Shown here piece after piece: positions 1,659 to 21,863 of a stretch of DNA of 23,124 nucleotides. The translations under genes were made by a program, and so were the position numbers. How positions within the stretch are numbered: position 1 is the first letter of the stretch; each line of letters begins with the position of its first letter. The notes beneath the pieces were generated by a model. It had not been told where the DNA came from. It was given only the letters and a program-made list of their open reading frames with translations, and made no database searches. The stretch spans positions 1 through 23,124 of IMG/VR virus record IMGVR_UViG_3300044855_000325; one strand, given 5' to 3'. The DNA is from a virus.

Positions 1659-2780
1659 TTAGACACCAAACGATGCGCGGTCGCTGTGCGGACGGGCGAA
1701 CCGCCATCGTTCCCAAGATGGGTGATCGGCGGGCATGCCGTACGCGTCGGCCAGGATCGACCGGCCGATCGCCAGCCCACTGTTGTCCCAATGGAGCGAA
1801 TGTTTGCGATGGTACAAAAACGGTTCGGCGATGGTTTCAATCGAGACACCTGCCAAATCGAGATGGACCGGGAGCCACCAATCCCACATCGGTTGGCCGA
1901 TCCCGAAATCCAAATTGGGCAGCGTGGTCAAATCCTCCGGGTAGAGCAGAAAGACATCGTAGCCCCAGCGTTCAAGCGTGGCGTCGATGCGGCGCAAATT
2001 GGCGGGTAGCCGCGGCCGCGTAGGCTGCGGATGGTCAACTGCGTCCTCGGCGGACGCAGCTACGGCGTCATCATCCCAATTGTGCCGGATGCCGATGGCG
2101 GTCTGGCGATCGTCGACCAGCTCGAGCAATCGCGACTGGGGGCCGAGGATCTCAATGTCGCTGTTCAGCAGCAGCATCGGACCGCTGCCGAGCTGCAGCA
2201 GATCGAACACGCGCGGGGTCGGGCGAGAAAATGCAACCGACGGCTGCACAACTGCGAATTCGACGTCGTACTGATCCCTGAGCGAGTCGATCTCGTCGGC
2301 CGTATTGCCTGAGACAACGCGACGCAATCCGAAGTCCCGCCACGATTGCAGACATTGCTGTTGCACCTCGCGATGGTGCGGCAGCGGCGACAGGGACGTG
2401 ATCGCGACAACGTGATCGATGGGCGGTTGAATCCACGGCTCGCCACGCCACAAGGCTCGCGCCTGACCCAGCGGCATGGCGGGCTTGTTCAGTTTGGCGT
2501 TGACCAAATTGTGGTATTCGACGGTCCAATCGAACCAGGCGTCTAACGAATCGTAACGCGGGGGACACAGGGTCAGCAGATTGTTGGCACTCTGCCGGCA
2601 TCCGCAGCCGGTCGGGATCAGTTTCTGCCACCGGGCAAACCATTCGGGCGTGCCCAACGGTTCGCTGTGCAATGCCCTCCAGGCGGCTCGGCCGTGTGCG
2701 TCGATTTCGATCGGCGACATCGGCGTGGTCATTCCCAGTCGGCGAAAATACGCAATCTGTTCCGGCGCGAGCGGAATCAT
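1659..2780 (-). CDS. Erv1/ALR-like N-terminal domain fused to GT-A-type glycosyltransferase-like domain
   Basis: The 373-aa protein has two parts. Residues about 45-110 resemble the four-helix Erv1/ALR thiol-oxidase fold: W-x-x-L-I-P-T-x-C-x-C at 51-61, then W82, W85 and YHNLVNAKLNKP at 89-100. The redox pair is C59-G-C61 rather than C-x-x-C, so catalysis is uncertain. Residues about 122-350 look like a GT-A glycosyltransferase: a strand VVAITSLS, LLLNSDIEI with N206-S-D208 in the place of the DxD metal motif, VFLLYPE, and DFGIGQPMWDWWLPV from 291. It would transfer a sugar from a nucleotide-sugar, perhaps to virion or host surface, but the substrate cannot be told. It overlaps the cysteine-rich gene by ATGA (2777-2780). 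Residues 240-258 are encoded by a REP pair (2006-2063), between the NSD strand and the DFGIG motif. Confidence 0.75.
   Translation of the reverse strand: MIPLAPEQIAYFRRLGMTTPMSPIEIDAHGRAAWRALHSEPLGTPEWFARWQKLIPTGCGCRQSANNLLTLCPPRYDSLDAWFDWTVEYHNLVNAKLNKPAMPLGQARALWRGEPWIQPPIDHVVAITSLSPLPHHREVQQQCLQSWRDFGLRRVVSGNTADEIDSLRDQYDVEFAVVQPSVAFSRPTPRVFDLLQLGSGPMLLLNSDIEILGPQSRLLELVDDRQTAIGIRHNWDDDAVAASAEDAVDHPQPTRPRLPANLRRIDATLERWGYDVFLLYPEDLTTLPNLDFGIGQPMWDWWLPVHLDLAGVSIETIAEPFLYHRKHSLHWDNSGLAIGRSILADAYGMPADHPSWERWRFARPHSDRASFGV
2006..2063. repeat. REP inverted pair (family 1) lying inside a coding sequence
   Basis: Two 25-base GTAG-headed units, plus at 2006-2030 and minus at 2039-2063, form a 58-base tail-to-tail pair with the spacer ATGGTCAA. 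Both stems are intact apart from a G-T wobble. The pair is read straight through by the glycosyltransferase-like frame and encodes residues 240-258 (Ala/Val/Asp/Pro/Arg-rich). The other copies of this family lie between genes. Confidence 0.88.
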
Positions 2781-3646
2781 TCACATGTCCCAATCTCAAT
2801 CGACCACGAATCGGGATTCGAAAAACAAAGCGGCGGGATTTCGACGTAACCGGGAGTTGCGCTGTTACAAAAAAGTTCCGCCCACAGTTCGCAGTTGCAA
2901 GATCCAGTAATGTACGGCGATATGGCGCCACAGCATCGCGTTGTAGTATTGAAATGCGCCAGCTTGCCAGACTCGGGAAATCCCGGAACCCTGTCGGGCA
3001 CACAGCGTAGAAAATCTAAATCGCACGGATCGTTGTCTGTTGGACCGAACGTAACGGTTCCAGTCGGCAACTGGCGAAAATGTCGAATGCGCCACCAATC
3101 GGTGTTGCACGTGCATTGCCGGCACCTGTATTGAACATCTCCGGTCGTCCACTCGCACTGATCCTCGCTGAAACAATTTCCAATTGGGCAGGTGCTCAAA
3201 AAATCAGGGACAGGATTATTCAGCACAGTCCTCATCTGCTGCCATTCAATAATTTTTGCGTAGTCGACCCACCGCGTCAGAATGAAATAGCTGCAACCCA
3301 ATTGATCGTTGCAGTCGAGAATTGAATTTTCAGTGGCCCAATAGCGGCTGTAAAAATCGCGCCAGATCCAGACCTCGCGCAAGCAACCGCGGTACAGGTA
3401 GTATTCAACGCCCCGCTTGGAGGTGATTGTATTATCCCCAAATCCGGCGATATTGCACGGCGTTTCATAGCAGAATGGACCGGTGTACTGACAATTGTCA
3501 GCGCCAAAAAAACCGCGCCAGCAGCAACCGGTGTAGGGTGTCAAATTGATCCAATCCCCGATGCGCGAAAAACCCTCGATCGTGATCGCGTCGCATTCGA
3601 TCAATGCATTGAGATTGTTACAGGTGCAACAGCAACACGCAGCCAT
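2777..3646 (-). CDS. Cysteine-rich phage tail-region protein (29 Cys in 289 aa)
   Basis: No family is recognised. The protein starts M-A-A and then C-C-C-C-T-C, and has 29 cysteines in 289 residues (about 10%). These include CC pairs (residues 4-7, about 41-42 and about 239-240) and C-x-C/C-x-x-C spacings around 175-182. It is also rich in Trp, Tyr and Phe, with no signal peptide or membrane segment. Such a density suggests a disulphide- or metal-stabilised extracellular part, for example a receptor-facing tail tip, but this is inference. It lies after two minor tail genes with a 6-base gap, and its stop overlaps the start of the Erv1/ALR-glycosyltransferase fusion (ATGA). A cysteine-rich client beside a thiol-oxidase-fold protein is suggestive. 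Base use is more AT-rich than its neighbours (28 of 60 G+C in 3241-3300). Confidence 0.8.
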   Translation of the reverse strand: MAACCCCTCNNLNALIECDAITIEGFSRIGDWINLTPYTGCCWRGFFGADNCQYTGPFCYETPCNIAGFGDNTITSKRGVEYYLYRGCLREVWIWRDFYSRYWATENSILDCNDQLGCSYFILTRWVDYAKIIEWQQMRTVLNNPVPDFLSTCPIGNCFSEDQCEWTTGDVQYRCRQCTCNTDWWRIRHFRQLPTGTVTFGPTDNDPCDLDFLRCVPDRVPGFPESGKLAHFNTTTRCCGAISPYITGSCNCELWAELFCNSATPGYVEIPPLCFSNPDSWSIEIGTCE

Positions 3647-3652
3647 GATTGC

Positions 3653-4432
3653 TCAGCAGTAGGGAATAACGACATGCCACGCGCCGACATCGGCGCTTCC
3701 GACGACCGTACCGCGAACGTAGCGGGCGATCCCTTGGAACGGGGCGCTGGGGTTGTACGGTGTTTGGTACACCCACGCGCCGCTGTTGTAGCCATCGCGG
3801 AGCGTTGTGGTGTGGCCGCTTAACGATCCGAACAACCCGCCAATGGTCGCCGTCGCGGTCGGGTTCGGTGGTGCGGACCAACTCGACGCGAGCGCGTAGG
3901 GTGCCATCAGCTGCACCTCGGACAAATCGACGATCGCGCCGCTATCGTGCCCTTGGACGACTCGACCCAATCCGTAGTCTGCGACGCCAAACTGTGTAGA
4001 GCCAGGGCAAATATACATGCCAACAGAAATACCGCCGGCCGGCTCGTCGATCCATAACGCCAGCCCCGATACGGCGACTAGCCCAAATTCGTTTTGCTTG
4101 ATCGGCTCGAGCGTCAACGCGACGCCGCCCACGGTGTCCCCGTCCCGCAGCGGGTTGCGCGGGATAAGAGTGTAGTAGCCCTTGCGAGGGTCCCAATCCT
4201 TGCGCGCAAACGCGGGCCCTGCTTTGTGCGTAAACGTGTAATTGTAGAGAGCCGGTTTACCGACGGCCAAATCGGCGCCGGTCGTGTTTTTCGCCAGTGC
4301 GTGGCCGAGCGACATTGGTTCGCGATCGTTGGCTGTGTACGACAATCGGCCGGCTCGCGCGTCGCGCAGCAAACGATCGATCTCGTTTTCGCGAGATGCG
4401 GAGGGAACGAATTTTTGACCGGCGTGGTACAT
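3653..4432 (-). CDS. Putative minor tail protein (259 aa)
   Basis: I recognise no named domain. The N-terminus (MYHAGQKFVPSASRENEIDRLL) has a short amphipathic helix rich in Arg, Glu and Leu. Most of the rest is strand-forming, Gly/Thr/Val/Tyr-rich sequence with a small basic stretch at about 77-85 (residues ARKDWDPRK), typical of beta-sandwich tail or baseplate parts. There is no signal peptide or membrane span. It sits between the 289-aa post-tape-measure protein (1-base gap) and the cysteine-rich protein, a position held by distal tail or hub-linked proteins in siphophages. The start at 4432 is the only good ATG near the upstream stop. The function is inferred from order and composition only. 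Confidence 0.75.
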   Translation of the reverse strand: MYHAGQKFVPSASRENEIDRLLRDARAGRLSYTANDREPMSLGHALAKNTTGADLAVGKPALYNYTFTHKAGPAFARKDWDPRKGYYTLIPRNPLRDGDTVGGVALTLEPIKQNEFGLVAVSGLALWIDEPAGGISVGMYICPGSTQFGVADYGLGRVVQGHDSGAIVDLSEVQLMAPYALASSWSAPPNPTATATIGGLFGSLSGHTTTLRDGYNSGAWVYQTPYNPSAPFQGIARYVRGTVVGSADVGAWHVVIPYC

Positions 4433-4433
4433 G

Positions 4434-5303
4434 CTAAATTTTCAACTGCGTGAAGTCCGCAAACTCGTACACGCGATGGACGTGGACCGTGCGCGGCGTA
4501 CGAATCACAAACCCAGCGTTTTCGGCGGCGATGTAATCGATCCACAAATAATCGTGGCCGAGTTTCTCGACGTTGCTGATCGTGCCAAAGGTCAGAGCGT
4601 TGCCGTTGGCAACCGAGCGGTTGGGAGACGCGACAAACTTGTGCGTAAATTGCACGTCGCCGCCACCCTTCACGCTGAAATCGACGCCGAGATACAGCAC
4701 CTCGCCGCGTGCAAACGGGCCAAACACTGCAGCGTTGACGGTGCCCGTCATCTTGGTCACGGTGAGCAGATAATCAAACCACAGCGTGCCAGCCTTGAGC
4801 ACCTTGTCAATTTGGAATTCCAGTTTCGGAATCACAATGTCAACGCCATCGACGCCACTGGAACTGACGTTGATCGCACCCTGGTAATCGGGACCGGTGC
4901 CATATTTTTGGTACGCGTAGCCCTGCGTGATGGTTTGCGTCGCGCCGCTGGTCGTGCCGCTGAATGTGTAGTCGACGGCGTTCCCCTGGTCGTCGCGCAC
5001 CAGCGATTTGTATTCGCCCGTGATGGTCCAGATTTCGGGCGAGTCGGTGGCCGTGGCGCGGATCGATTTGAGCAGCAGCGCCGGGTTGCCGGTCGCCAGA
5101 TCGAACGGTATGTACGTGGGGAGCCGGCCCTCGTGGTTGCTGGGCAGATTGAGGCAGTAGTTCAGCGCGGTCTCGGGTGTGGTAAACCCAGTGACCTGGA
5201 CCTCGCGCGTTTGATCCTTGGTCGCACCCTCGGCGGTCCAGGTGGTTTCGCGTGAGGTGGCGACCTCCCATGCGTCGGCAGATAAAATGGGGAATTGGCT
5301 CAT
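4434..5303 (-). CDS. Putative minor tail / distal tail protein (289 aa)
   Basis: This protein directly follows the tape measure gene (5-base gap between its ATG and the tape measure stop). That is where siphophages encode distal-tail and hub proteins. It is 289 residues, beta-rich, with N-terminal SQFPILSADAWEVAT, a Thr/Gly-rich middle, and a C-terminal half containing repeated F-x-V-x-x-x-x-G patterns (for example LGVDFSVKGGGDVQF near residue 210). No catalytic motif, signal or membrane segment is visible. Length and composition would also fit a second tube-like protein, but the main tube candidate is at 12148-12663. Reading is continuous with the next gene. The structural-protein call is moderately sure; the exact role is open. 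Confidence 0.75.
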   Translation of the reverse strand: MSQFPILSADAWEVATSRETTWTAEGATKDQTREVQVTGFTTPETALNYCLNLPSNHEGRLPTYIPFDLATGNPALLLKSIRATATDSPEIWTITGEYKSLVRDDQGNAVDYTFSGTTSGATQTITQGYAYQKYGTGPDYQGAINVSSSGVDGVDIVIPKLEFQIDKVLKAGTLWFDYLLTVTKMTGTVNAAVFGPFARGEVLYLGVDFSVKGGGDVQFTHKFVASPNRSVANGNALTFGTISNVEKLGHDYLWIDYIAAENAGFVIRTPRTVHVHRVYEFADFTQLKI

Positions 5304-5308
5304 GGGTT

Positions 5309-7261
5309 TTAGGCTCCAAACTCGACGCCGTCGCCGTCGTCCTCGGTGTTGTCAGCGATCTTGGTCAGCAATTGGTTCGCAGTGGCTTGGTTTTTGACCA
5401 TCGATTGCATGGCATTGTTGACACCGCCGCCGCCAGCTAGCCCCGCGCCGAATCCCGAGAACGTCCCGACCGCTTTTTGAGCGTCACCCATGGCGGTCTG
5501 CATTTGGGGCGCGGTCAATTCGGGCAGATTAAATTTTGGTTTTTCGATCGATTCGGATCGTTCGCGCGCGATTCGTCGCGTCTCGGCCTCGCGGTTGACA
5601 TCGATGATCGTGCTGGCGATCTCGTCGCCGATCTGTTGGATCCTCGCGTCAAACTCCGATTTGCGTGCGTTGGCCTGGTCGCGAATGCCGGCGGTCATTC
5701 CTTGAGCAATCTCGTTGCGTGCAGCGTTCGCCGCCATCAGCTCACGATTGCGTCGTTCGTTGGCGGCATCGAGCGATCGCTGGCGGTCGGCAGCTCGTCG
5801 ATTCGCGTCGGCGTCCATCGATTTGGCGGTCGCTTCGTAGTCGATCGATTGGTCGAACAGCGAATACAAGTAAAGCAGTTTCTTGGCGATGTAGTTGACC
5901 GTCTGGTCCCAGGTGCCGGTCAGCCACGTGATCGCCGTCCCGAACGCGTTCATGATCGTCGTCGGGATGCCAGCAAACGTGTTGGCCACCGCAGCCACCG
6001 CGTTGATGGCACCGATGGCGATCGTTGAATACAAATCGGTCCACAGGTCGTAGATGGGTTGCGTGCCGATGCGGATCGCTTGCTCGAGCCCCAGCATGGC
6101 GATCTCACCTGCCGCAGCCCATTGACCGCTCATGAGTGCCGTGGCCACCGCGTCGAGAATGGGCATAACCCAGTCGATCAGCGCACCAAATTGGTCGCTG
6201 ATGTATTGGATGGCTGCGGATCCGGTGCCGGAGAAATACAAAAACGCGCCTGCAGCAGCGACCACACCACCGATGACCAAACCGATGGGGCTCAGGAGAA
6301 ACGTGACCGCTGCGGCGATGCCGCCCAGGACGGTTACCAATGCGCCGCTGATCGCGGCCAGGCCCGTCATCACACCGCTCAACACCAACCCCGCGCCACC
6401 GAGTGCAGCGACACCTGCTAGGACGCCGGCACCGACCGCGGCCCATTGGGCGAGGGTGACGACCAGATCGCGGTTGTCGTTGATGAAATCGGAGACGGTG
6501 ATCACGACATCGGTCATCCGGTTGGCCAGATCAATCAGCATCGGCGCCAGCGTCGCGCCGATCCGGTTGGTGACGCCACCGAGGGACATCATCAGGTTGT
6601 CCATCGCGTCCCCAAGTTCTGCACCTGCGACGGCATCCTCAGTTGACATGACCAACCCGAGATCCGCGGCCTGGTCCGCCATGTCTTGCAGACCCTGCGA
6701 GCCGTTGGCCAGCATCGGCAGCAGCATGGCGCCGGACTTGCCGAACAGCTTGATCGCCATTTCGGCCCGTTTCGCGGGGTCGGGGATAGCGGCGATTTGG
6801 TCGGCGTAAGCGATAAGCGATTGCGTCGCGGTCATGCCGGAGAGGACCTTGCCCGATTGCTGCAGTTTGCGGAGCGCCTTCTCCACCGCTCCCATGTCCG
6901 AGCCGCTCATTTTGGCCGCGTAGCCCAGCGCGCTTAATTCCTCGGTCGTTGCACCGGTGCGTTGTGCCATGTCGTCGATGTTTCCGGCCGCGTCCGCAAA
7001 CTGCTTGATGAACATGGTGAGCCCGGCGCCGCCGAGTGCGGTGGCGAGCAGGGTCTTGGTGTTCAGCAGACCACCGGCCATCGTTTTCAACGCGCCGTTA
7101 GCGGCGCCGAATCCCGATGAAAGCGTACGGCCGATGGTTGCTGCACTCGCGGACAGTCGTTGCATGGATGCGCGCACGGCCTTGACGCCACGATCAAACA
7201 GAGTTTTATCGGTGCCGATCTCGACAAATGCGCGTCCTGCGCGGGCGCCTTTTGCGGACAT
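5309..7261 (-). CDS. Phage tail tape measure protein
   Basis: The tape measure sets tail length and is threaded inside the tube. The chosen start, ATG at 7261 (MSAKGARAGRAFVEIG), gives 650 aa; the same frame runs upstream only through the REP cluster, so the longer form is rejected. Typical features are an N-terminal helical region with the family-like stretch AQRTGATTEELSALGYAAKMSG near residue 105. Hydrophobic Gly/Ala-rich segments lie at about 265-350, likely membrane-inserting on ejection. Then comes a long Ala/Arg/Glu/Asp-rich coiled coil at about 470-580 and a Gly-rich C-terminus. At 650 aa it predicts a fairly short siphophage-type tail. It lies downstream of the gp10/gpZ-like gene, separated by the REP cluster at 7277-7387. 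Confidence 0.93.
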   Translation of the reverse strand: MSAKGARAGRAFVEIGTDKTLFDRGVKAVRASMQRLSASAATIGRTLSSGFGAANGALKTMAGGLLNTKTLLATALGGAGLTMFIKQFADAAGNIDDMAQRTGATTEELSALGYAAKMSGSDMGAVEKALRKLQQSGKVLSGMTATQSLIAYADQIAAIPDPAKRAEMAIKLFGKSGAMLLPMLANGSQGLQDMADQAADLGLVMSTEDAVAGAELGDAMDNLMMSLGGVTNRIGATLAPMLIDLANRMTDVVITVSDFINDNRDLVVTLAQWAAVGAGVLAGVAALGGAGLVLSGVMTGLAAISGALVTVLGGIAAAVTFLLSPIGLVIGGVVAAAGAFLYFSGTGSAAIQYISDQFGALIDWVMPILDAVATALMSGQWAAAGEIAMLGLEQAIRIGTQPIYDLWTDLYSTIAIGAINAVAAVANTFAGIPTTIMNAFGTAITWLTGTWDQTVNYIAKKLLYLYSLFDQSIDYEATAKSMDADANRRAADRQRSLDAANERRNRELMAANAARNEIAQGMTAGIRDQANARKSEFDARIQQIGDEIASTIIDVNREAETRRIARERSESIEKPKFNLPELTAPQMQTAMGDAQKAVGTFSGFGAGLAGGGGVNNAMQSMVKNQATANQLLTKIADNTEDDGDGVEFGA

Positions 7262-7276
7262 GCTACGGTTCCTTGT

Positions 7277-7387
7277 GTAGCCGCAGCCGCGTAGGCTGCG
7301 GATGTTCAGTCTGCGTCCTACGCGGACGCAGCTACGTGTAGCCGCGGCCGCGTAGGCTGCGGTCAACTGCGTCCTGGACGCAGCTAC
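7277..7387. repeat. Cluster of four GTAG-headed REP palindromes (two inverted pairs, family 1)
   Basis: Units lie at 7277-7301 (plus), 7311-7335 (minus), 7338-7362 (plus) and 7367-7387 (minus). The first pair is a 59-base tail-to-tail unit almost identical to the reverse complement of 1554-1612. The second pair has a shortened 4-base spacer, and its last unit has lost four loop bases. Perfect 8-base stems CCGCAGCC/GGCTGCGG and CTGCGTCC/GGACGCAG share the loop GCGTA. The last unit's GTAG provides the TAG stop codon of the gene ending at 7384. Confidence 0.9.
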
Positions 7388-7956: not shown

Positions 7957-8046
7957 TAGCCGAGATGCGCGAGCATCCGGGTTGAAGCGTGGCAAACGTC
8001 GCATGGTCGCGAGCAGTTCAACCCGGGGGCTTGCGCCCCTCGGCTA
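7957..8046. repeat. Family-2 repeat: inverted TAGCCGAG hairpins with GNRA loops, copy A
   Basis: The left arm begins TAGCCGAG and folds as GATGC-GCGA-GCATC; the right arm, read on the minus strand, begins TAGCCGAG and folds as GGGGC-GCAA-GCCCC. Both arms continue into CCGGGTTGAA, and the interior contains GTGGCAAACGT. It starts about 7 bases after the stop of the 249-aa gene and fills the gap before the 188-aa gene. Copy B is at 12038-12144. The loops are GNRA tetraloops and the stems covary between arms. Confidence 0.88.
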
Positions 8047-8053
8047 TCATTGC

Positions 8054-12037: not shown

Positions 12038-12144
12038 TAGCCGAGCGGCGCGAGCCGCCGGGTGGAAGTGTGGCAAACGTGGCGAGGTTGCGAGCGTGGC
12101 GAGGTGGCGAGCGGTTCAACCCGGGGGCTTGCGCCCCTCGGCTA
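12038..12144. repeat. Family-2 repeat: inverted TAGCCGAG hairpins with GNRA loops, copy B
   Basis: The left arm reads TAGCCGAG and folds GCGGC-GCGA-GCCGC. The right arm on the minus strand folds GGGGC-GCAA-GCCCC, identical to copy A. The interior shares GTGGCAAACGT with copy A and is lengthened by short GTGGCGAGG-type tandem units. It begins three bases after the tail tube gene's stop. Relative to copy A the left stem changes GATGC/GCATC to GCGGC/GCCGC with pairing kept. Confidence 0.88.
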
Positions 12145-12147
12145 TAA

Positions 12148-12663
12148 TTAGTTGGCGGCGACGGTCAACCACGCTGGCTCGACAATGGTGCCGCTCACCT
12201 TTACGCGAGCCAGGTCGACCTTGATGTCGACCTTGACCGCACCCTCGAGCGGTTGATCGACCACAAACTCGGTGATGATGCCGGGGAACGTCAAACCCTG
12301 CGATCCCTTGGGACCTGGAACTGCGGGTGGTCCGGCCGACGTTGTGTTGAGGTTGTCCATCACGGCCCAGTGCCACACGGTCCGCGCGAGAAACGCAGTA
12401 CGCAGCGCGGTGATTTGCGTGTCGCCGACATCGCCGTTCCACAAATAGCCGAACGTCAGCGACAGCTCGGTTAGGGTCGGGAGCTTGGCTTTGAAGGTGC
12501 TGATGCGGCTGGCAGCGTCGGTCGTGCCGGTGGTGACCGACAGATTGACGTCTTGCGCCTCGGTGATCAGCACGGAGTTGGAGATGGTAAACGTGGTTGC
12601 GAGTGTTGGCTGGTAATACAGTTTGCACTCGTTGCCAGCTAGTGGGCCGATGTTTGCGGGCAT
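12148..12663 (-). CDS. Putative major tail (tube) protein (171 aa)
   Basis: The protein is beta-rich, 171 residues, beginning MPANIGPLAGNECKLYYQ. It has a strand ISNSVLITEAQDVNLSVTTG, then LPTLTELSLTFGYLWNGD, and a C-terminal strand GAVKVDIKVDLARVKVSG. The opening 'G x x C K L Y Y' followed by 'E A Q D V N L S V' matches the N-terminal plan of TP901-1-like tail tube proteins, where the first strands line the tube. It directly follows the tail terminator candidate, separated only by a REP unit, and lies before the chaperones, as expected for the tube. Downstream is repeat copy B. A longer overlapping frame on the same strand (12116-12679) is a shadow. Confidence 0.78.
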   Translation of the reverse strand: MPANIGPLAGNECKLYYQPTLATTFTISNSVLITEAQDVNLSVTTGTTDAASRISTFKAKLPTLTELSLTFGYLWNGDVGDTQITALRTAFLARTVWHWAVMDNLNTTSAGPPAVPGPKGSQGLTFPGIITEFVVDQPLEGAVKVDIKVDLARVKVSGTIVEPAWLTVAAN

Positions 12664-17346: not shown

Positions 17347-17394
17347 GTAGCTATCACCGCCAGGTGATGGCCATCGCTTGGCAGCGATAGCTAC
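17347..17394. repeat. REP inverted pair (family 3), perfect head-tail palindrome next to integrase
   Basis: A plus unit at 17347-17370 is followed with no spacer by a minus unit at 17371-17394. Each is GTAG plus an 8-base stem and loop GCCA: stems CTATCACC/GGTGATGG and CTATCGCT/AGCGATGG. Together they make a 48-base palindrome with imperfect centre. The right unit's GTAG gives the integrase its TAG stop (17391-17393). It lies between integrase and capsid, a plausible spot for attP, but no core sequence can be shown. Confidence 0.88.
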
Positions 17395-18437
17395 GTCGTG
17401 GCGCGGTGCCAATGGTCGTCCGTGACCATGGCATAGCTGCGCATCGCGACGGCGGCGCTGTTGCCGATCCATTGCGACGCGGTGGCGAGTCCATACCGCT
17501 CAATCAATTCCGTCTCGCGCGTGGCTCGCATCGAGTGCCACGGCGCACGCCATGGCGTGACGCCTGCGATCGCCATCAGGTTAAGCAGCCGACAGGCCAT
17601 GCCGGAATCGCTGCCGTCGATCAGATCACCGCACAGCGGCACATCGCGAGGATGACGCTCGAGGGCCGCGGCGATCTCGGGGAACAGCGGGATCGTGCGA
17701 GTGGTGTCTCGTTTGTGGTCACAGATAGCGATCCGTTTGCGGTCCCAGTCGATCGCGTCCCAGGTGAGGGATCGCAGCTCGGACGGGACGCGGATCCCAC
17801 CGAATCGGCTCATGGCGATTGCAACCGCCATCGAGGGCGTGGCGATCTCGATCAGTTTGGCCGCAACACCGATCGGGACAAAATGCTTTTCGCGGACGTT
17901 GATCTTGATCGATAGCTCCCGAGCGGGATTGTCGGTGATAAACTTGCGATCGATGCACCAATGGAAAAACGCGCGCCATCCTGCGGCGATCTTGCCTCGG
18001 GTCGATTCACCCACAGTGAGGGACTGGTGGCACTCGGTGACATCCTCGGTCGATACGCGATCGATGGGCCGCTGATCGAGTGCATCGCGGAGCAGTTCGA
18101 GGGACCGTTGCCGATCGTTCCAGGTGGCCATCGCCAACCGCTCACGCGTCTCATGCACGTAGGCATCGATCGCAGTCCCAACGGTGTGGGTCGCGCCGAG
18201 GATCGCGGAGAGTTTGCGGCGCAGTGCTGGACAGATTTGGTCCAGCCACCGCACGGTCTGACGCGGCAGCGGCAGATCGGCGGTCTGTGCGGCGAGGATC
18301 TCGTCGACATGACGCTGGACCGCGACCGCGTCGGCCTCGGGGATGTCCCCCAACCAAATCGATTTGCGACCGGTGGCCGTGTACGCTCGCAGCCGCCACC
18401 CGGTGCGTGACTTGGTCTCACGCGTCAGGGATGACAT
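17391..18437 (-). CDS. Tyrosine-family site-specific integrase
   Basis: The 348-aa recombinase catalyses strand exchange between attP and attB. A Trp/Arg-rich N-terminal arm-binding segment and a core-binding helical domain (about 85-170) come first. The catalytic domain carries R216 in FGGIRVPSELRSLTW, K242 in DHKRDTTRTIPL, H301 and R304 in WHSMRATRE, and the nucleophile Y335 in MRSYAMV. Nine residues before Y335, where most family members have G-H or G-W, this protein has I-G-N (N326); G-N forms occur in many bacterial recombinases, so activity is likely. It overlaps the 99-aa gene by 20 bases on the same strand, so it is embedded in the head operon rather than at a prophage edge. Its stop is in a REP head. 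Confidence 0.93.
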   Translation of the reverse strand: MSSLTRETKSRTGWRLRAYTATGRKSIWLGDIPEADAVAVQRHVDEILAAQTADLPLPRQTVRWLDQICPALRRKLSAILGATHTVGTAIDAYVHETRERLAMATWNDRQRSLELLRDALDQRPIDRVSTEDVTECHQSLTVGESTRGKIAAGWRAFFHWCIDRKFITDNPARELSIKINVREKHFVPIGVAAKLIEIATPSMAVAIAMSRFGGIRVPSELRSLTWDAIDWDRKRIAICDHKRDTTRTIPLFPEIAAALERHPRDVPLCGDLIDGSDSGMACRLLNLMAIAGVTPWRAPWHSMRATRETELIERYGLATASQWIGNSAAVAMRSYAMVTDDHWHRATT

Positions 18438-18717
18438 TGGCCGCGTCGGCTGGGGTGGCCATGCTAACAGAATGCGGTTCGGCTTTGTCGCTGGTTACGG
18501 TAACGGATTTGACCCAAGCTATTTTCTTGAGTTGATTTGCATAAAAGTGTTGCGCCTGCCCTAGCGCTTCGCTGTAGTCGTAAGCTATACGGGTGACTGC
18601 ATCCTGCACCCATTTCACAATCGTAGCATCGGGCCCAGATACGGTGCCGCGTCCAAGGTTCACAGCGTACTCTGCACCATCCACTACAACCGTTAAATCC
18701 GACTTCTGCGTTTTCAT
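18418..18717 (-). CDS. Hypothetical protein between portal and integrase (99 aa)
   Basis: No family is recognised. The product begins MKTQKSDLTVVVDGAEYAVN, a short beta region. It continues with a helix DATIVKWVQDAVTRIAYDYS and a second helix ALGQAQHFYANQLKKIAWVK, and ends in a flexible Ser/Ala/Pro tail. Soluble, with no signal. The start overlaps the portal stop (ATGA at 18714-18717) and the end overlaps the integrase start, so it is translated in the same operon. Its bases are AT-richer, like the adjacent zincin extension, suggesting that both came together. An immunity or regulatory partner for the portal's C-terminal zincin is a reasonable guess, but only by position. Confidence 0.68.
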   Translation of the reverse strand: MKTQKSDLTVVVDGAEYAVNLGRGTVSGPDATIVKWVQDAVTRIAYDYSEALGQAQHFYANQLKKIAWVKSVTVTSDKAEPHSVSMATPADAANVIPDA

Positions 18718-21700
18718 CGTTTGCGCGTTTCTCGTGTCTTGGTTAGCAATCGCCCGGTGGCTATTCCCGAAATTAAATTGAAAAATTCTGGGTCGGCTTG
18801 TGCAAACGCGACAGGATTATGGCCCATCATTTCCAAACCCATCGATAGCACTTCGGTAGATTGCAAGTAAGAAAACGAACGGGCAAGTTCGCCCTCGCCA
18901 TAACTATGGTAATTTTCGACACCCTCATACATTTTACCAATGTAATGCGCTCGCCGCGTCACAAACGTATCGTCCACGTCCTCACCATACACGGCGCGAA
19001 CTACTTTGTCAAACTTATCGGGAGAGCCTTTCTCCCCTGCGTTGTACCCTTGCCCCCAAGATTGATCGCGGAATTCCACCGGACTTTCTCCGCTGGTTCG
19101 ATTTGCTAAAAACGAATTGACTAGGTCGTTTGCTTCTAGGTTTCCGTTTTCAATGTGGTGTCCGTATTCGTGGATAATGGTGTGGGACTGTGTTAAGCTG
19201 GACGCACCAATGTATGGATTTGGTAGTTTATCAGACAGCCGCGTTTTGCCGTCTGCGTCCGTCATTACGTAACGCCCCCCAGACGCAAACGCTCGCGTGT
19301 GGTTTTCAGAATACTCGATAGGAGTCATCAAAGCGTCGGCATGTATTGTCGGATTCACAGCGTTCCGCAAAAACGCTTCTGCTTCTTGGCGATGATAAGT
19401 TGCGGAGACCTCCTTTGACATAGCTACGCTTTCGGGCATGTTTTTTTGATTTGCCCAATTTTCGATGTGACTGCCGGATTCATGCACTTGCTCAATTTGT
19501 TTCAGAGATTGTCGGCGGTCTGCCGCAGATACCCCGTCCTCTAAATCGACCGCTTTGCATTCGGCAGCAAACGCGTCCGATATAGCGTTTCGATTTTGCT
19601 GGACTGCTTTGAGGTACGCTTTTTCCGCTCGTTGGCGTTCAGCGTTAAGTTGATTGAGTTCGACGTTTTTTATTTCGAGAGAGAGCTTTGCGTTTTCTAA
19701 ACGTGAAATCAAAATTTCGTTAGTTGGATCGGCCGCAAGCCCTTGCTCGTACATCGCAACATTCTGTCGTGCATCCTGGATAGCTACCCGTTTTTCGTGG
19801 ACGACGTCGTCGGATTTATCCCACGCGTCTCGCGCTTTTTTTAGTCGTTGCTGAGCACGCGATTGCGCTTTGAGCAAGGTTTGGCGAAATTTTTCCTGCT
19901 TTGTATCGTGTTCGCTTAAAGCAGTCCTGTAGTCGGTGGCGTCGCGTCGTGTCGTCGCGCTTTGTTTTGGAACAGGCTTGGTTGCGTCGGATTGGTCAGT
20001 GTTTTTCGTCGAGGTATCATCACTCTGTTTTTTTTTTGGCAGCACCTTGCCGCCCGGTTTGGTTTTTAATTGATCATCTTCAATGTACAGTCGCTGATCC
20101 GTGTCTTTTCGAGTCACCCATCCATCTGCCAACACATCGAGCATCGGCGACGCCGCCGTAGTTAGCGTGCTTTGTTGGCCGTCGTCTGGCTCAAACTCGT
20201 CGAGCAGATTGTCGATGGTTTGTTGAGTGAGTCCGATGCTGCCGTAGAACACGCGAGCGCGCTGGACGGTCCACTCGCCGGACTTGACCTTGTTCAACCC
20301 GTCATCGATCGCGGCCATCTGACGCTTGAGCTGCTGGCGCGACAGGTTCGCAAACTCGCCAGGCGGTGGCTCGGCGCTTGGCACCGGTTCGCCATCGGGC
20401 CCGACGGGTGCATTGGCTGCGACCGGTGCGGCAGATGGCGTCGTCGCAGTCTGCGCAGGTGCGTTGGGATTGACCCACCCCTCCTCGTCGAGTTGCTGCG
20501 CGTGCGACTCGGGGTCGATGTTCTGCTCGATCAAGTATTGCTGCCGCGTCTTGAGTCCGGCATCGATCAAGCGGATGTTGGCGTCGGCGACCTCGCTGGG
20601 GTTCACGTCGCGGTTCGGTGGCCATCGCCACACGTGCGGTATCTCGTCCATAGGCTCGAGGGCCGGTAGATAACCGGTGAGCATCAACGCTTCATCGAGC
20701 CACCATTCGAAAATACGGTCGAGGCATTCGATTTCCCATTGGGACCGTTCAACCGAGATGGCTTCGTAGTAGGTCTGATGATCGAGGCGTCCCGAGCTGT
20801 AGTTGTACTTGGACGAGTCCGCCAGGGCCTTGTTGCTGGGCATGTGGACGCAGCGGGCGATCTCGTTGAGGATCGCATTGCGGAATCCTTCGTAGGTGGT
20901 CGTCGGTTGCTCGGGCTTAAATTGAGTGAGATCCCAACCGCGCGGCAATGAAACCATCATCCCGCGATCAATTTGCACGCCATCGAATGGATCGATGTCG
21001 TCGATCCCATCGGTCGATGAGTCGAACGCGTTGGATTGCGTTTTGAGAACCGCGCTGAAATCGGCGGCGTTCTCGGCGGCGGCGATGACGGCGAGGGTGT
21101 AGCGTCGCAGCTGAGCGAACAGAGGGAGGGCCGGAGTCATCTCGGGGATGCCACGTTGTTGACCAGGTCGCTCGCTGCGGAACAGATGGATCAGATCGTC
21201 CGGGTCAATGGTTTCGTAATCCCAAGCCTTCCACGGCCACACGTCGCCGGGGTGACCTTTCAAAACGTGGTACTCGATCGGCTGGCCGAACTCGTCGAAG
21301 ATGATCCCATCGACCTGGTTGGGGAACCCGTCCATGTAGTTCGGGGTCGCGAGCATGTCGGCCTCGATGACGCGGATGTCGAGTTGAACCGGATTGCGGG
21401 ATCGGCGATTGTTACCCTTGAGGATCACCGTCTCGCCATCAACCAGTTTGGCCAGGCGTGCGGTACGCAGTTTGTCGGCGAGCTTGACGTCCTTACACCA
21501 TTTGCGCCACCGCTGCTCGATGGCTCGCGAGGCCGCTGGGTCGGGTAGCATGCACTGCAGCGATGGCCCGGTGCTGATGGTATCGTTGGCAAGCGTAAGC
21601 GCGATCCCCTTGGCGAACGAATTCGATTCGAGGATCTCGTAGCGCGATCGCTGGCGCAGGGTTTTGCGGACGCTCGACGAATTGGCCGCAGCGGCAGAAT

Positions 21701-21863
21701 GATGGTCGGCCCATCGCCAATGCTTGGCGGAGTCCTTGGTCTCGGCGGCTGCGTCGTACGATGCGCTGAGCGAATCGCGGCGGGCGCGTTGCATCGCTAA
21801 TCGATTGGCGACATGGATCGCCGCGGTGTCGATGGTTTGGCCGTACTGGTCAAGGATTGGCAT
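18714..21863 (-). CDS. Phage portal protein fused to C-terminal zincin metalloprotease domain
   Basis: Residues 1 to about 480 form a lambda-type portal (gpB family), the dodecameric DNA gate. Landmarks are RYEILESNSFAKGIALTL, LVDGETVILK, IHLFRSERPGQQRGIPEM and SSGRLDHQTYYEAIS. Lambda gpB is 533 aa; this protein is 1049. A Pro/Ala linker (about 480-520), a helix-rich segment and KPGGKVLPKKKQ (about 603-613) lead to a long coiled coil (about 650-790). The C-terminal zincin has HEYGHH at 898-903 (H898, E899, H902) and likely third ligand E1004 in STEVLSMGLE. G+C falls from 40/60 (21121-21180) to 25/60 (19621-19680), so the extension looks acquired. It could be a co-ejected protease or toxin-like effector, or a capsid maturation protease. 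An A10 tract at 20028-20037 may give a short portal by -1 slippage. It overlaps the next gene by four bases. Confidence 0.92.
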   Translation of the reverse strand: MPILDQYGQTIDTAAIHVANRLAMQRARRDSLSASYDAAAETKDSAKHWRWADHHSAAAANSSSVRKTLRQRSRYEILESNSFAKGIALTLANDTISTGPSLQCMLPDPAASRAIEQRWRKWCKDVKLADKLRTARLAKLVDGETVILKGNNRRSRNPVQLDIRVIEADMLATPNYMDGFPNQVDGIIFDEFGQPIEYHVLKGHPGDVWPWKAWDYETIDPDDLIHLFRSERPGQQRGIPEMTPALPLFAQLRRYTLAVIAAAENAADFSAVLKTQSNAFDSSTDGIDDIDPFDGVQIDRGMMVSLPRGWDLTQFKPEQPTTTYEGFRNAILNEIARCVHMPSNKALADSSKYNYSSGRLDHQTYYEAISVERSQWEIECLDRIFEWWLDEALMLTGYLPALEPMDEIPHVWRWPPNRDVNPSEVADANIRLIDAGLKTRQQYLIEQNIDPESHAQQLDEEGWVNPNAPAQTATTPSAAPVAANAPVGPDGEPVPSAEPPPGEFANLSRQQLKRQMAAIDDGLNKVKSGEWTVQRARVFYGSIGLTQQTIDNLLDEFEPDDGQQSTLTTAASPMLDVLADGWVTRKDTDQRLYIEDDQLKTKPGGKVLPKKKQSDDTSTKNTDQSDATKPVPKQSATTRRDATDYRTALSEHDTKQEKFRQTLLKAQSRAQQRLKKARDAWDKSDDVVHEKRVAIQDARQNVAMYEQGLAADPTNEILISRLENAKLSLEIKNVELNQLNAERQRAEKAYLKAVQQNRNAISDAFAAECKAVDLEDGVSAADRRQSLKQIEQVHESGSHIENWANQKNMPESVAMSKEVSATYHRQEAEAFLRNAVNPTIHADALMTPIEYSENHTRAFASGGRYVMTDADGKTRLSDKLPNPYIGASSLTQSHTIIHEYGHHIENGNLEANDLVNSFLANRTSGESPVEFRDQSWGQGYNAGEKGSPDKFDKVVRAVYGEDVDDTFVTRRAHYIGKMYEGVENYHSYGEGELARSFSYLQSTEVLSMGLEMMGHNPVAFAQADPEFFNLISGIATGRLLTKTRETRKR
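20020..20037 (-). promoter_or_regulatory. Candidate programmed -1 frameshift / transcription slippage site (A10) in portal gene
   Basis: On the coding strand CCA AAA AAA AAA CAG AGT GAT reads P-K-K-K-Q-S-D. The A-AAA-AAA heptamer is in the correct phase. A -1 slip gives ACA GAG TGA, a stop after two codons (residue 614). E. coli dnaX has the same plan, with GAG TGA after its A-AAA-AAG. AAGGTG, a weak ribosome-like site, lies about 6-11 bases upstream, inside a small GGCA/TGCC hairpin. Function is unproven. Confidence 0.6.

Follow-up and report, generated by a model that had tools for sequence, protein, structure and literature searches.

Why does a tailed phage carry, beside its tail genes, a protein in which one residue in ten is cysteine, and why is the gene for that protein coupled to one encoding an Erv/ALR-type domain joined to a glycosyltransferase? 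The locus lies in a 23,124-base stretch of DNA (the window) which is a whole IMG/VR virus record, possibly a fragment of the phage genome. The window encodes a lambda-type portal (Pfam E=2.9e-57), a protease/major head protein and a tape measure protein (5309..7366; PHROG E=1.4e-30), and thus comes from a tailed phage.

A cysteine-rich protein in the tail operon

The tape measure gene and the genes that follow it lie on the minus strand, as do all of the domains and motifs located within them below. After the tape measure gene come, with tight spacing, a gene for a 289-residue protein with a counterpart in relatives (4434..5303), a gene for a 259-residue protein (3653..4432), the cysteine-rich protein gene (2777..3646), which begins 6 nt further on, and the gene for a 373-residue Erv-glycosyltransferase fusion (1659..2780). 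This order places the last two genes in the tail operon. They overlap in an ATGA, in which the stop of the one and the start of the other share positions 2777..2780, as the first-pass annotation of this locus had noted.

The cysteine-rich protein is also 289 residues long, and 29 of these (10.0%) are cysteine, the number that had drawn attention to it initially. The mean over the other 20 window proteins counted is 0.68%, a rate at which 29 or more cysteines in 289 residues would be expected with a probability of about 1e-24. Compared with two relatives, 23 of the 29 cysteines are invariant, as against 41% of all residues. The protein has no family match in Pfam or PHROG. The position of its gene, just after that of the tape measure, suggests a tail-region protein, probably part of the tail tip, an assignment made by gene order.

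The Erv/ALR-type domain and its C-x-C site

Residues 22-115 of the fusion protein (2436..2717) form an Erv/ALR-type domain, as judged from sequence profiles and a structural model. The full protein matches PF04777 with E=2.7e-5 at 24.9 bits, just below the cut-off of 27.6, while the isolated domain exceeds that cut-off (E=3e-6, 27.9 bits). All 47 non-redundant members of the family that we assembled match PF04777 and no other family. A profile search of the PDB with these members returned sulphydryl oxidases only, the best being human ALR (E=5e-14), and both cysteines of the phage C-x-C align with the C-E-E-C pair of that enzyme. Most of the relatives were collected by scanning for the motif HNxVNxKLxKP, so that the residues of the motif are fixed by construction, and we therefore repeated the search with the domain cut before the motif. 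The cut-down profile found African swine fever virus (ASFV) pB119L first (E=3.8e-6), and its top thirteen matches were all Erv/ALR chains, which rules out the scan motif HNxVN as the sole source of the Erv signal.

The AlphaFold model of the 373-residue protein, made from an alignment of 46 rows, has a pLDDT of 83, with about 89-96 across residues 31-90; an alignment of seven sequences had given 64. Residues 22-115 of the model superpose on Erv2p (Z 12.0, 2.4 A over 93 residues), on ASFV pB119L (Z 11.8, 2.1 A over 91) and on human ALR, the three giving Z of about 11.5-12 at 2.1-2.4 A, values that helical folds may reach by chance, while the sequence profiles indicate membership of the same family. 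The Erv-like fold proposed from the sequence alone is thus borne out by Pfam, the PDB profiles and the model alike.

The first-pass annotation also recorded a C59-G-C61 in place of the expected C-x-x-C, and took this as a hint that the domain may bind rather than oxidize. The cysteines of the 373-residue protein are indeed at positions 59, 61, 72 and 143, and the alignments put C59-G-C61 (2598..2606) at the position of the FAD-proximal pair. A cysteine pair occurs at this place in 47 of 47 non-redundant members, as C-x-C in 40 (CGC, CDC, CSC, CKC, CQC, CPC, CTC and others) and as C-x-x-C in the remaining seven. Having C-x-C, the window protein misses one canonical Erv feature, and we class it as a variant of the Erv family for this reason. 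Members with C-x-C and with C-x-x-C have the same gene context and the same kind of partner. A weakly supported tree of the two forms has at least three changes between them, though it is also compatible with a single origin.

The remainder of the site resembles that of an Erv enzyme. Residues 90-100, HNLVNAKLNKP (2481..2513), are the Erv signature with the FAD-contacting His, Val and Lys positions (PMC4721541), and the full FAD-contact pattern G-R-x-x-W...H-N-x-V-N-x-x-L-x-K...W is found in the window protein as G30, R31 and W34, then H90, N91, V93, N94, L97 and K99, and finally W111. Eight positions (G30, R31, W34, C61, H90, V93, K99 and W111) align to residues that are reported to contribute to FAD binding in Erv1 (PMC4721541). 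Trp95 and Trp183 of yeast Erv1, which support FAD binding and function (PMC4721541), have W34 and W111 as their counterparts; Arg182 of Erv1 is not kept, the window protein having Leu110. Outside the search motif, W34, P56, C59 and C61 are invariant and H38, I55 and P74 nearly so. There is no second redox cysteine pair outside the core, as C72 and C143 are not conserved, and 21 of the 47 excerpted domains contain no cysteines besides the two of the motif. At one locus (L045 6976-7200), an additional zinc-ribbon-like cysteine motif lies ahead of the Erv domain.

Because the pair is conserved, is replaced only by C-x-x-C and is accompanied by the Erv/FAD signature, we do not regard the C-x-C as evidence for a binding-only role, and the suggestion to that effect is not upheld. 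For the same reasons we rejected the C-x-C as the likely mark of a dead enzyme. A C-x-C is redox-competent elsewhere, both as the CPC of Mia40 (PMC4019985) and where cellular Erv enzymes have one as their shuttle disulphide (PMC3509050), while we found no report in the literature searched of a C-x-C at the FAD-proximal site of any Erv enzyme. The shorter loop could alter the geometry of the site. A protein that has lost catalysis and binds the cysteine-rich protein specifically, to chaperone it or to form a structure with it, would be in keeping with the departure from C-x-x-C and also with the strict one-to-one pairing described below. A pure binder, however, would need neither the FAD-site tryptophan and histidine residues, which are retained, nor two invariant cysteines that are exchanged only for a C-x-x-C with no change in the kind of partner, and we consider such a role unlikely.

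The conserved gene pair and its optional glycosyltransferase

Whether the high cysteine content of the neighbour is an accident of one phage can be judged from the relatives. Protein searches found six other contigs (L002/L006, L003/L004/L005, L007, L008, L009 and L010), in all of which a cysteine-rich gene immediately precedes the Erv gene. In one of them, from a close relative (L003 5138-7050), the Erv-glycosyltransferase gene is split between frames inside the glycosyltransferase part, and the cysteine-rich neighbour is apparently frame-shifted over about 35 residues, through sequencing error or decay. Scanning the collection for the motif gave at least 119 stretches, so the family is larger than the one counted here. 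Together with the loci from the protein searches, the matches listed comprise 86 loci, and an automatic rule identified the directly upstream gene in 79 of them. Among these matches listed, that gene encodes at least 4% cysteine at 75 of the 79 loci and, after removal of redundancy, at 40 of 43, with a median of 7.6%; other neighbouring positions have medians of about 0-2%. At two of the four exceptions (L075 and L090), the cysteine-rich gene is one position further upstream. The tight junction is general too, in that the nearest in-frame start is at most 21 nt from the upstream stop in 43 of 43 non-redundant loci, with a 4-nt overlap in 16.

We also searched in the reverse direction with a DNA pattern for the N-terminus of the partner, containing no Erv residue. 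An Erv domain (E<1e-5) follows 63 of the 63 complete cysteine-rich genes that have room downstream, and 30 of these 63 loci were absent from the first set. The pair is accordingly present in at least about a hundred other viral contigs, and its recovery in both search directions, which agrees with the expectation that the two genes travel together, rules out an accident of one phage.

Among the cultured phages of INPHARED (50,697 phage records) no match was found for either of the two window proteins or for any of four Erv domains that differ widely, and neither window protein matches PHROGs, against which one of 47 Erv domains gave a marginal match (E=0.0075). Two matches in bacterial genomes, to proC-like genes of Novosphingobium, were set aside as chance. 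The class and phylum of the Novosphingobium match gave no hits in 289 and 398 genomes, respectively, a search confined to that phylum and made without a known positive-control genome, and so saying little.

The third element of the locus, the glycosyltransferase, is fused to the Erv domain as first described. Residues 119-361 (1698..2426) are modeled as a GT-A fold, similar to that of WrtF (Z 13.3) and polypeptide GalNAc-T2 (Z about 12), albeit with an identity of just 8-14% and, in the window, fusion to an Erv domain. The 373-residue protein has no match to a Pfam glycosyltransferase family. The NSDI of its NSDIEI motif, corresponding to the acidic metal/nucleotide motif of GT-A enzymes, is invariant in six homologues together with many other positions. 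Fused domains of this type A occur in the window and in L002, L010, L013, L045, L057, L065 and L071, with NSDI invariant, while a second, GT8-like type B is present in L007, L017, L018, L040, L048, L060, L067 and L091 (for L040, Pfam Glyco_transf_8 E=7e-6). The other 31 of the 47 non-redundant members, L009 and L029 among them, have no fused glycosyltransferase. At several stand-alone loci the next gene encodes a metallophosphoesterase and not a glycosyltransferase (e.g., L029 4572-5669; PHROG E=2.9e-37).

As the glycosyltransferase is optional and of two types, the conserved unit consists of the cysteine-rich protein and the Erv domain. Sugar transfer, put forward at first as a second modification within the module, is thus not part of its core, about two thirds of the relatives being without the fusion. 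That glycosylation of the cysteine-rich protein might be the main job of the locus, the Erv-like domain merely targeting the transferase, draws on the seemingly intact domain, with its NSDI and its many invariant positions, and on a fold near those of WrtF and the polypeptide GalNAc-transferases. We find this highly improbable, given the 31 members that lack the fusion, the two types among those that have it, and the stand-alone loci where a metallophosphoesterase or an unknown gene comes next.

A predicted oxidative-folding module

The partners are highly divergent, and most can be aligned at their ends only. They have about 250-550 residues, with cysteines scattered along the whole length, and are densest in cysteine at the N-terminus, where 45 of 46 non-redundant partners have at least four cysteines within the first 25 residues and the density is about three times that of the remaining sequence. 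The typical beginning is M-G-x-[FIL]-G-[KR]-C-x-C-x(0-3)-C-C, as in MGGIGRCCCTCECL; the window protein begins MAACCCCTC, and residues 4-9 (CCCCTC, 3620..3637) are its counterpart of the common cluster. Partners of C-x-C and of C-x-x-C enzymes have this cluster in common. It may be, and this is speculation, that the Erv cysteine pair meets its partner here.

The number of cysteines is odd in 36 of the 46 non-redundant partners, an excess with p of about 2e-4 on an assumption of independence that the partners do not satisfy, and with start codons assigned by script. An odd number means that at least one cysteine is unpaired within the chain, and the simplest reading is one free or interchain cysteine. 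Odd totals would also suit a metal or Fe-S protein, for which the dense N-terminal cluster looks like a site; the Erv-like protein would then not be an oxidase and would serve in thiol reduction, in isomerization or as an insertion factor. C-x-C peptides are described as mimics of disulphide isomerase (Woycechowsky and Raines 2003, as cited in PMC2672033). The cysteines are, however, spread along whole proteins of about 250-550 residues, and all of the relatives of solved structure that were returned for the Erv/ALR domain are sulphydryl oxidases, making such a role very unlikely.

We think it likely that in these two genes the phage encodes a module for the oxidative folding of a tail-region protein, with the Erv-like protein as its predicted catalyst. 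A phage-coded partnership of the kind first proposed, serving a disulphide-rich protein whose assignment to the tail region is one of gene order, stands as the best explanation of the pair. The upstream gene, close behind that of the tape measure, would supply the cysteine-rich protein, and the translationally coupled downstream gene an Erv/ALR-fold flavoprotein with a C-x-C as its FAD-proximal pair. This protein is predicted to bind FAD; the C59-C61 disulphide would accept electrons from the thiols of the newly made partner, and FAD would hand them on to O2 or another acceptor. The partner would in this manner acquire disulphides before the tail is assembled or while this is under way, in a cytoplasm that is otherwise reducing. 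Its N-terminal cluster might be the docking or entry site, replacing the shuttle disulphide without which compact viral Erv enzymes work, and the fused glycosyltransferase might add an optional second modification. The most far-reaching version, that uncultured tailed phages, a large group of them, use a two-gene pathway of their own to build a disulphide-armoured tail protein in the bacterial cytoplasm, with a C-x-C Erv enzyme and the cluster of the client as a shuttle in trans, is one we advance tentatively.

Erv-type disulphide catalysts are described as universal in eukaryotes and conserved in their large DNA viruses (PMC3509050, PMC10598087). Such enzymes are encoded by giant viruses, poxviruses, baculoviruses and ASFV, and many of them have no shuttle disulphide (PMC3509050). 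The compact viral forms (ASFV pB119L, baculovirus Ac92 and mimivirus R596) are the closest working parallel. These have the same fold and are virus-encoded, many lack a shuttle disulphide, and some have extra fused domains (PMC3509050). They differ in having eukaryotic hosts and a C-x-x-C, whereas the phage family belongs to tailed phages with C-x-C prevailing, and its gene, unlike theirs, is coupled to that of one cysteine-rich partner in a tail operon. Yeast Erv1 and Erv2p and human ALR share with the phage domain the fold (Z 11.4-12.0), the FAD-site Trp, His, Val and Lys positions and the HNxVNxxLxK signature, but they have separate shuttle pairs and a C-x-x-C beside FAD, where the phage domain has the proximal pair only, mostly as C-x-C. 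In the Mia40/Erv1 relay, too, a C-x-C (CPC) redox motif acts together with an Erv flavoprotein (PMC4019985), there in the carrier Mia40 and in the phages in the Erv protein itself. We found no separate carrier in the phage system; the N-terminal cluster of the partner might, speculatively, play that part.

In the mainly open-access literature we found descriptions of eukaryotic viral and cellular enzymes only, and none of a phage Erv system. If our reading is correct, this would be the first described oxidative-folding system of a phage, and the Erv family would gain a new form of active site. The conserved pair, carried by many uncultured tailed phages, suggests that these phages bring their own disulphide-making machinery, used while still inside the bacterium. 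One Erv protein and one client would make a simple, testable two-part disulphide machine and possibly a tool for producing disulphide proteins in bacteria, with the natural set of C-x-C and C-x-x-C sites available for comparison. The pair would also offer a way into the function of an abundant family of phage proteins that PHROGs misses.

The window has some further features. Copies of an 86-nt repeat lie at 1527-1612 and 7277-7362 (94% complementary). The initial codons of the tape measure open reading frame (7277-7366) fall inside this element, so the true start is probably further in. A partial copy within the glycosyltransferase coding region (2003-2064) corresponds to about 27 extra residues inserted in frame (about 236-262, of low pLDDT), which are absent from more distant relatives. 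A second, direct repeat of 63 nt is found at 7989-8051 and 12087-12149 (86% identical). The portal open reading frame (18714-21863) encodes 1049 residues. Its similarity to the lambda portal family is limited to residues 50-371, and the long C-terminal part is unassigned. A tyrosine-integrase-like gene (17391-18437; Phage_integrase E=8.6e-5, below the cut-off) is oddly placed, with the head gene on one side and the portal gene on the other.
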